34,610 nt of DNA, taken from Vicinamibacteraceae bacterium (GTDB taxonomy: Bacteria; Planctomycetota; Phycisphaerae; Phycisphaerales; UBA5793). The notes below the pieces were generated by a model, which saw only the letters and a program-made list of their open reading frames with translations, had not been told where the DNA came from and ran no database searches. Shown in pieces: positions 7,397 to 31,594 of this stretch (within the stretch, counting starts at the first letter, position 1; the number at the start of each line of letters is the position of its first letter). The position numbers and the translations under genes were made by a program. Location: NCBI GenBank assembly GCA_011525805.1, contig WYBR01000054.1:1-34610 (forward strand). The letters are read 5' to 3'.

Positions 7397-7418
7397 TCTC
7401 CGTTTCGTTCCCCCCACG

Positions 7419-7446
7419 CCCACGATGAGGCTCTGCGAATCGTGGG
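7419..7446. other. Stem-loop after the M3 peptidase gene
   Basis: CCCACGAT (7419-7426) pairs perfectly with ATCGTGGG (7439-7446) around a 12-base loop, starting 22 bases past the M3 stop. No T-run follows. It may be a weak or factor-dependent terminator, or processing hairpin. Its right arm lies inside the first copy of the tandem repeat described next. Confidence 0.45.
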
Positions 7447-16824: not shown

Positions 16825-16863
16825 GCGTCGAAGCCCACGTTCATTGAACGTGGGCTTCGACGC
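16825..16863. terminator. Perfect 18-bp hairpin between convergent genes
   Basis: The arm 16825-16842 (starting GCGTCGAAG, ending ACGTTC) is the exact reverse complement of 16846-16863, with loop ATT. It starts on the base after the TGA of the isomerase-like gene and ends 14 bases before the stop of batE on the other strand. The symmetry suggests a bidirectional terminator, although neither side has a T-run. Confidence 0.75.
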
Positions 16864-24143: not shown

Positions 24144-24208
24144 GCGATAACGGTGTCCGACACCATCTCCTAGGCACCGATGCGCCGGTGTCGATGCATC
24201 CGCCGCTC

Positions 24209-30001: not shown

Positions 30002-31594
30002 TCAGGCCACGAGAGACTCGGGTCGGGGAACGATTCGCGGCTCAAGGCTCTTCGGCGCCTCGCCGCACTCGGGCACGAGCGAAAAGACCAGGCGCTGGGC
30101 CTCGATCGCATCGCCCCGCTCGCAGCAGCGCTGGAGCAGCGCGACCATTTCGCGGACCTGCCCCGCCTCGGGCGGCGGCATCGTCCAGATGTGGATCCCC
30201 GGATGCGCCGTCGGCCGCATCGATTCGCCGTCGCACGCGAGTTCCTCGAACAATTTCTCCCCCGGCCGGATGCCCGTGAAGACGATCGGCATCGTGCCTT
30301 GCGAGCCGTCACGTCTTCGTGACGGGTCGCGCGCGACGTTCACACCGTTCCCAACTCCCGCGCCCTCCTCGATCCGCGCCTCCAACCCGTGCGCGCGAAT
30401 GAAGCGCTTGGCGAGGTCGAGGATGCGGATCGGCTCGCCCATGTCCAGCAGGAGCACCTCGCCTCCCTTGCGGTCCTCGAGGGCCGCGGCCTGAAGGACG
30501 AGCGACGCGGCCTCGGGGATCGTCATGAAATAGCGCGTCATGTCCGGGTGCGTGACCGTCACCGGCCCGCCCTGGCGGATCTGCTCAGCCCAGATGGGCA
30601 GCACCGAGCCTGACGACGCCAGCACGTTTCCGAAGCGCACCATGCGGAAGACCGCCTCGCTGTTCTGATTCATGTGTTGCACGTACAACTCGGCGAGGCG
30701 CTTGGTCGCCCCCATCGTCGAAGTCGGGTTCACCGCCTTGTCGGTGCTGATCATCACGAAGCGCTCGCAGCCGCATGCGGCCGCGGCATCGGCGATCGCG
30801 ACGGTGCCGAGAAAGTTGTTGCGGATCGCCTCGATCGGATGGTCCTGCATCATCGGCACGTGCTTGTGGGCGGCGGAGTGGAAGATGACCTGAGGCCGAA
30901 TCTCGCGGCACAGCGCCGCCGTGCGCGACGCATCGGTGACGTCGTGCAGCAATGCCCGGCGGCGCAGCTGCCCCGCGAGCCGCGCGATCTGCCGGTCGAT
31001 CTCGAAGAGCGCGTTTTCGCTTCGCTCCATGAGGATGAGTTCCGCCGGCTCGAAGGCGGCGCAGCGCCGCGCCAGTTCCGAGCCGATCGAGCCTCCCGCC
31101 CCGGTGATGAGCACCCTCCGGCCGGTGATCACCTCGCCGACGGCTCGCTCATCGATGGGACGCGGGCGCCGTCCGATCAGGTCGGACACGTCAATCTCGA
31201 ACTGGCTGCGCGGCCCGACGCCGGCGAGTTGATCCTCGATCGTCGCAAAGAAGCGGTCCGGCACGCCCAGACGCCGCACGCTCGTGCGCAGCGCCGCCAC
31301 CGCCTCGGACATCGCTGCCGGCAGGGAAATGATGACCGAATCGACAGTCTCAGGATTGACGAACTCGTCAAGTTGATGCGCCAGACCCAGGATTCGCACG
31401 CCCTCGCGCTCCAGTCGCTCGCGCGCCTGAGCATCCGCCTCGCGCCACAGCAGGGCGCCGGCGACGCGCGGCCGGGCCGACTCGGGAAGCAGAGACAACT
31501 GCGCTTGCACTTGGAGACACGTGGCGGCGGTCCCGATGATCAGCGCGCTCGGTGGTGCTGGTGGAGCGCTTAGGGTGGGGCAATCGGCGCGCAT
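30002..31594 (-). CDS. CapD/FlaA1-family nucleotide-sugar dehydratase, soluble form
   Basis: 530 residues. An N-terminal Rossmann-like domain (about 15-125) precedes an extended-SDR domain. NAD-binding GAGGSIGSE is at 165-173; the catalytic region is MISTDKAVNPTSTMGATKR, with Thr284 or Ser283, Met294 replacing Tyr, and Lys298, as in WbpM-type 4,6-dehydratases. Substrate is probably UDP-N-acetylglucosamine. The N-terminal membrane helices of CapD and WbpM are not present, so it should be cytoplasmic. Residues 411-434 (before PIVFTGIRPGEKLFEEL) are an insertion coded by palindromic DNA. No other polysaccharide gene is nearby. Confidence 0.92.
   Translation of the reverse strand: MRADCPTLSAPPAPPSALIIGTAATCLQVQAQLSLLPESARPRVAGALLWREADAQARERLEREGVRILGLAHQLDEFVNPETVDSVIISLPAAMSEAVAALRTSVRRLGVPDRFFATIEDQLAGVGPRSQFEIDVSDLIGRRPRPIDERAVGEVITGRRVLITGAGGSIGSELARRCAAFEPAELILMERSENALFEIDRQIARLAGQLRRRALLHDVTDASRTAALCREIRPQVIFHSAAHKHVPMMQDHPIEAIRNNFLGTVAIADAAAACGCERFVMISTDKAVNPTSTMGATKRLAELYVQHMNQNSEAVFRMVRFGNVLASSGSVLPIWAEQIRQGGPVTVTHPDMTRYFMTIPEAASLVLQAAALEDRKGGEVLLLDMGEPIRILDLAKRFIRAHGLEARIEEGAGVGNGVNVARDPSRRRDGSQGTMPIVFTGIRPGEKLFEELACDGESMRPTAHPGIHIWTMPPPEAGQVREMVALLQRCCERGDAIEAQRLVFSLVPECGEAPKSLEPRIVPRPESLVA
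30301..30330. repeat. Palindrome inside the CapD-like coding region
   Basis: CCGTCACG (30306-30313) pairs with CGTGACGG (30318-30325), loop TCTT, flanked by GCGA (30301-30304) and TCGC (30327-30330), which also pair across one G-G mismatch. It lies within the segment coding the extra residues 411-434 of the dehydratase (ARDPSRRRDGSQG). Confidence 0.75.

Follow-up and report, generated by a model that had tools for sequence, protein, structure and literature searches.

The window, by which we mean the whole 34,610-nucleotide stretch of DNA that was analyzed (G+C content of 68%), carries on its minus strand an open reading frame of 530 amino acids encoding a CapD/Polysacc_synt_2 protein (Pfam PF02719, E = 3.1e-103), relatives of which are present in NCBIfam and the PDB. 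Inside this gene lie an extra loop and a palindromic unit that matches two covariance models, R1 and R2, of a dispersed repeat family that we call REP-A. The features of the locus are as follows.

30002..31594, minus strand: coding sequence of the CapD-like nucleotide-sugar dehydratase/epimerase, host of the element (open reading frame, Pfam PF02719)
30293..30364, minus strand: extra CapD loop, residues 411-434 (orthologue alignment, AF2)
30297..30346, minus strand: REP-A unit in the CapD gene (model R2, 57.2 bits, a training copy)
30299-30342, minus strand: the same unit as matched by R1 (68.5 bits, a training copy here too)
30301..30330, no strand assigned: hairpin with 13-nt arms, 12 of 13 positions paired, loop TCTT on the plus strand and AAGA on the minus strand
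30335..30338, minus strand: CGTC motif 5' of the hairpin, within ...GAACGTCG...
30301..30307, minus strand: GGCTCGC, the terminus of the unit (GCGAGCC on the plus strand), in highly conserved columns of alignment A4

The hairpin at 30301-30330 reads GCGAGCCGTCACG-TCTT-CGTGACGGGTCGC, with one arm mismatch and a 4-nt loop, and has a folding energy of -22.6 kcal/mol (RNA parameters, plus-strand letters). A preliminary description of this DNA had reported a near-perfect 30-base palindrome at this position, as indeed is present, and had placed it in residues 411-434, the correspondence of which to 30293-30364 is exact by codon arithmetic. Counting hairpins of this grade (13-nt arms, at most one mismatch, loop of 4-6), we found three in the window compared with a mean of 0.37 in 200 dinucleotide shuffles, 57 of which held at least one. 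Taken alone, the palindrome is only mildly unusual for a window of this G+C content and is weak evidence; it rises above chance because a repeat family exists.

In the AF2 model of the CapD-like protein (26 sequences, mean pLDDT of 84.9), the extra loop sits between predicted strands 404-407 and 433-438, and with pLDDT values of 47 and 52 for residues 411-420 and 421-430, respectively, it is probably disordered along 411-434. Relative to the solved WlaL/PglF structure (5bju), 34 residues replace 6, in an alignment whose second half is non-significant (i-Evalue 4.3). The claim of ∼24 extra residues stands against distant family members, as 13 of 30 aligned orthologue loci (30 of 39 matches taken in, the host's own locus among them) join almost directly to the TGxRPGEKL segment, but it fails against the host's own genus. 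From LDLA/LELA to RPGEKL the CapD gene has 57 codons, compared with 46, 48, 47, 48, and 47 in the congeners G001 to G005, respectively, a net excess of just 9-11 residues (27-33 nt). Because this gain is shorter than one unit, either loop codons were lost or the element partly arose in place. The loop is long and variable across part of the order. Within the genus the insertion is unconserved, the question of strain specificity having been raised in the preliminary description: the 46-48-codon loops of G001, G003, G004, and G005 are unrelated in sequence, and that of G002 holds, by eye only, a decayed look-alike of the unit that gave no match when R2 was run on the congener loci.

The exact CapD stem pattern has no second copy in the host genome (G000, a 4.54-Mb draft in 138 contigs, numbered with C), and looser DNA searches found diverged relatives at C133:42531, C133:8875, and C82:44247. 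R1, built from these three and the CapD copy, gave 50 matches in the host genome at E ≤ 10, with 23 at E < 0.01, 19 of them outside the training set; several intragenic copies are weak by this model (E of 0.035-0.06; the FlhA end, NuoG, M20, C75, and the second PurL strand). R2, built from the 26 copies of alignment A4, gave 30 matches in G000 at E ≤ 0.01, comprising the 26 training copies and 4 new ones, some of which overlap (the PurL palindrome on both strands, the cluster at C15:52349-52479, and the tandem in the M20 gene). The copy number is thus modest for a REP family.

Outside the host, R2 gave 10 matches in G002, none of them in the training set, and none in each of the congeners G001, G003, and G004. 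On congener loci it matched KsgA and, partially, PurL in G002 (E = 0.0024), with only noise beyond these (E of 0.07-0.4). The search that covered these congeners took in 81 genomes and returned, besides, 12 weak matches (E of at least 7e-4) in six other genomes and none in the remainder; those in G049, G008, and G075, the last from the same order as the host, have by eye the hairpin core alone in common with REP-A, and those in G016, G040, and G056 are dissimilar to it. A scan of 392 genomes across the phylum returned G000 and two weak outside matches, which by eye do not resemble the unit. With few candidates scored in each genome, the scan saw just 15 of the 30 matches that the host is known to have, a low sensitivity at which scattered copies elsewhere may have escaped it.

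As separate observations, a 24-nt hairpin core with a fixed stem, CGCGTCGRGGACGACGCGGCTCGC, occurs in 11 contig stretches of five planctomycete assemblies (titled Phycisphaerales, Phycisphaeraceae, uncultured planctomycete, or Botrimarina, a member of Planctomycetota), mostly as an isolated core and, outside the genus, without REP-A flanks by eye. A weak REP-A match at G000:C56:8038-8088 on the minus strand (E = 0.0118) lies in frame in a long, strongly coding open reading frame.

In alignment A4 the REP-A unit is ∼45-50 nt long and consists of an ACGTCG-like motif, an imperfect hairpin, and then GGCTCGC. The tag at the motif position is CGTC in 14 of the 26 copies and TGTC in one, and its position relative to the stem differs from that in published CGTC REPs. 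The loop is mostly RGGA, and AAGA in the CapD copy, and the stem is variable yet base-paired, with 93.0% of stem cells paired compared with 83.6% after shuffling. Changes on both sides of a pair affect 24 stem cells (shuffled mean of 7.7; 0-4 in slid controls), and the covariation score is 0.267 compared with 0.098. On these three of five measures none of 500 shuffles scored as high, and compensatory stem variation is therefore present in the family. The other two were non-significant, namely the number of pairs changed on both sides (3 versus 2.5, 223 of 500 shuffles as high) and of further pair types (12 versus 10.5, 89 of 500). Pairing reaches 97.8% of cells in the inner helix and 84.5% in the outer, which has no double changes, and all these values carry a bias toward pairing from the structured model by which the units were picked. 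Inverted doublets in the order minus, gap, plus, with gaps of 10-43 nt, are found on C50, C25, and C15 of G000 and on C27 and C79 of G002. The outer ends of some inverted pairs are GCGAGCC...GGCTCGC, and other orders also exist (plus/minus on C15, and weaker ones on C133 and C82).

The preliminary description had proposed a search for intergenic copies in the host genome. We classed the 30 R2 matches ourselves by codon score, Pfam limits, and reading frames, with gene names beyond Pfam families given by recognition, and 13 proved to be intergenic, among them copies upstream of uvrB, der, nuoG, and manC. A further 13 lie in frame inside 10 genes, singly in those for CapD, class-II DAHP synthase, ThiC, KsgA, a Wzt-like protein, NuoG, and MiaB, and doubled in those for PurL, an M20 peptidase, and a futalosine-hydrolase-like protein. 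Two copies lie at protein ends (the C-end of an arginyl-tRNA-transferase-like protein and the N-end of a DUF7088 protein), and two at N-ends are of ambiguous class (FlhA and a cytochrome-b C-terminal-domain protein). By eye, G002 has units within KsgA and Wzt and upstream of der, uvrB, and manC, as in G000; a unit at the end of a glucosidase-like open reading frame belongs to G002.

We compared the lengths of seven of these genes with those of five congeners. Gains confined to G000 were found for DAHP synthase (+22/23 aa), the M20 peptidase (+24 aa), and NuoG (+19 to +24 aa), and gains common to G002 for KsgA (+10 aa; +7 in G002) and MiaB (+4 aa), so the in-frame copies are clearly absent from close orthologues for the first three genes and, G002 apart, for the last two. 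Absence is less sure for PurL, where no consistent net gain over the congeners was seen and the altered sequence is common to G002, and for ThiC, where likewise no consistent net gain was seen in a DNA comparison that lacked G004. The futalosine-hydrolase-like gene is 38 aa longer than that of G002, counted by eye. Placed on the DAHP synthase structure 5uxm, the insert comes between residues 363 and 365, adjoining the DPMHGNT motif, and judging from the open frame the enzyme appears to tolerate it there. Twelve copies in 11 genes are read in five different unit frames (the DAHP synthase anchor being set by hand), and across the family units 139 of 156 copy-frames are stop-free, the other 17 holding a stop.

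REPs carried in frame are already known, from Rickettsia palindromic elements (RPEs) and from GTAG and CGTC REPs. The available text of Di Nocera et al. (2013, PMC3733652) describes RPEs as short palindromic repeats in frame within open reading frames of unrelated proteins, a likeness to REP-A, which differs from them in sequence and phylum; it also equates RPE-6 and RPE-4 with CGTC-1 and CGTC-4 REPs, whose signature REP-A does not have. As far as that text describes CGTC REPs, REP-A resembles them in the CGTC 5' of the hairpin (in the 14 of 26 copies), a 4-nt loop as in CGTC-1, the occurrence of dimers, and a transposase gene that is not adjacent. In contrast, its tag does not adjoin the stem, its end is a constant GGCTCGC, and the A-T pairs at the stem start and the CCA tail are missing. 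The available results name five phyla for CGTC repeats, Planctomycetes not among them; the wording of the abstract suggests that both super-families are found in that phylum. With GTAG REPs and REPINs and their RAYTs, as presented in the same text, REP-A shares inverted doublets, compensatory stem variation, and intragenic copies, reported there for some species; RAYT-type genes are also present in the host genome. However, the A4 consensus is without GTAG, and no unit was found beside a Y1 transposase gene. The element called "REP-type" is thus REP-like in its architecture, with no GTAG tag and with the signature of the published CGTC REPs only in part.

Could the palindrome have arisen by chance in a G+C-rich, fast-evolving loop that is simply a lineage-specific extension? 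Equally good hairpins appear in more than a quarter of the window shuffles, parts of the order have long, variable versions of this loop, and the net gain over congeners is small, all of which such an origin would accommodate. Yet the same ∼45-nt unit recurs in the host genome (the 19 new R1 matches at E < 0.01) and in G002 (10 matches) and has no match in three control congeners of the same genus, and short of the family itself being an artefact we consider a chance origin very improbable. We give equally little credence to a functional role for the hairpin as an RNA element in the capD mRNA, retained for attenuation or stability. The hairpin is strong, and the available text of PMC3733652 mentions a proposal that REPs act as RNA elements, but this one lies within the coding sequence, ∼300 nt before its end and with no adjoining T run seen, is unconserved at the CapD site in congeners, and belongs to a unit common to unrelated host genes.

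An origin in place, in which slippage, template switching, or hairpin gene conversion rewrote native loop codons into a hairpin with no transposition, deserves more weight and would fit the length neutrality of PurL and ThiC, the partial gains of CapD and MiaB, and the short tandem reiteration in the M20 peptidase. What such rewriting explains poorly is that the dispersed copies have motif, loop, and terminus in common besides the palindrome, and that similarly ordered inverted doublets recur in two species; we regard it as unlikely. Very probably, then, the CapD palindrome is one unit of REP-A, a non-autonomous family of REP/REPIN type common to the host species and the congener G002. REP-A has dispersed copies, a covarying stem, and inverted doublets and gives no match in three congeners, and open frames run through its units in about ten enzyme genes, several with a clear species-specific gain in length. 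The proposal of the preliminary description that a REP-type element had been captured in frame within a coding sequence is supported by this dispersed family and is essentially right: other copies exist, and the insertion is not conserved across distant orthologues.

As a member of REP-A, the CapD unit would have moved by a single-strand (Y1/HUH, RAYT-like) route with the enzyme supplied in trans. Insertion would not be aimed at genes, and units within genes would persist where they are in frame, stop-free, and in a loop that tolerates change. Translated as ...VNVARDPSRRRDGSQ..., the CapD unit would form a linker that is probably disordered and is not expected to take part in catalysis; we regard it as a passenger that the enzyme tolerates, not as a functional part. 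The host genome has eight Y1_Tnp matches, seven over the Pfam cut-off, and three of its Y1 proteins resemble the REP-associated tyrosine transposase NF047646 at scores below its cut-off. Six of the eight regions were examined, and in all six the transposase match is bordered by inverted repeats. No R1 match at E ≤ 0.05 was found in the eight loci, three of which end at contig ends, and three of the eight gave weak matches only (E of 0.076-0.74). As no Y1 gene was found beside REP-A, we infer mobilization by a RAYT in trans; counting against transposition, neither a clean empty site nor a target-site duplication was demonstrated for the family.

One Y1 domain lies inside valyl-tRNA synthetase (ValS), for which each of the five genomes searched has one locus at E ≤ 1e-20. 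In the host (G000:C60:2-4120, minus strand) the ValS frame has 1373 codons, upstream codons included, and is cut by the contig end. Five tandem repeats, a Y1_Tnp domain (Pfam E = 2.4e-8, above the cut-off), and an inverted repeat break up the synthetase, the ValS sequence continuing beyond them; repeats of ACGAGCCGCGCCCGTGAGGAAGCGG flank the transposase domain, and residues 415-680 stand against 11 residues in the solved enzyme 1gax. The AF2 model of the N-terminal part has a mean pLDDT of 39.1, and only about residues 561-620 reach 77-86. G004 ValS is full length (1236 residues, over the NCBIfam cut-off for valine--tRNA ligase), with a Y1_Tnp match in its loop that is barely over the Pfam cut-off (24.4 versus 23 bits), and the same loop in G001 matches NF047646 with 88.2 bits against a cut-off of 80. 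G003 has no Y1 match and only a short linker at the loop, and the G002 contig stops before it. A Y1/HUH domain is thus in frame in one ValS loop in three of the four genomes with a readable loop, the host included. The HLGH motif is intact in every ValS and KMSKS in G001, G003, and G004, the G000 contig ending before KMSKS. The domains of G001 and G004 differ in type, so at least two entries into the loop are likely. Two other loops of host ValS also hold repeats: three in-frame copies with 33-nt spacing (AEHGRPARTNE/D) at G000:C60:50-154, and a further copy of the transposase-flanking repeat, with one mismatch, at G000:C60:2061-2085.

The repeats around the ValS transposase have the form ACGAGCC...GGCTCGT and the REP-A doublets outer ends of GCGAGCC...GGCTCGC, a likeness that might serve as a lead to the mobilizer of REP-A. 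According to the available text of Quentin et al. (2018, PMC6006769), class 3 TnpA_Y1 enzymes are found mainly in Planctomycetes, Acidobacteria, and Proteobacteria. On visual inspection, the protein embedded in host ValS contains NHVH and WT, together with YVLHEQ, which comes close to the YV[VI][AENY]EQ of that class. The 5' foot of the class is given there as CnGA, compared with GCGAGCC in REP-A. That an enzyme of class 3 type moves REP-A is our conjecture. More broadly, we tentatively suggest that the RAYT/REP system of this genus may live inside proteins, with units as in-frame loops of core enzymes and a transposase, of a different RAYT type per species, in frame in one ValS loop; REP-A might be moved by such an enzyme; the repeats that flank it in ValS resemble REP-A doublets in their outer ends, CGAGCC...GGCTCG. 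If this were true, ValS would be at once a synthetase and the carrier of an HUH transposase, the element would reside in a host gene that it is unable to lose, and the persistence of REPs through a transposase kept inside an essential enzyme would become directly testable.

No earlier description was found of REP-A in the literature searched, nor of a transposase within ValS in a body of literature without most subscription journals. Palindromic "selfish" DNA that is read in frame is familiar chiefly from Rickettsia, and we extend it here to a planctomycete with a distinct repeat, in which apparent small DNA parasites have become protein loops, and the central enzymes give natural pairs with and without the insert for measuring the tolerance of inserted loops. 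Elsewhere in the window, 7416-7446 (plus strand) is an exact copy (31/31) of the repeat flanking the Y1 transposase gene of C99, and a stretch at 24207 (minus strand) has 5 mismatches in 36 positions to the repeat flanking the transposase gene of C6. Two strong hairpins lie at 2830-2858 and 16829-16859, the former followed on the minus strand by a T run and terminator-like.
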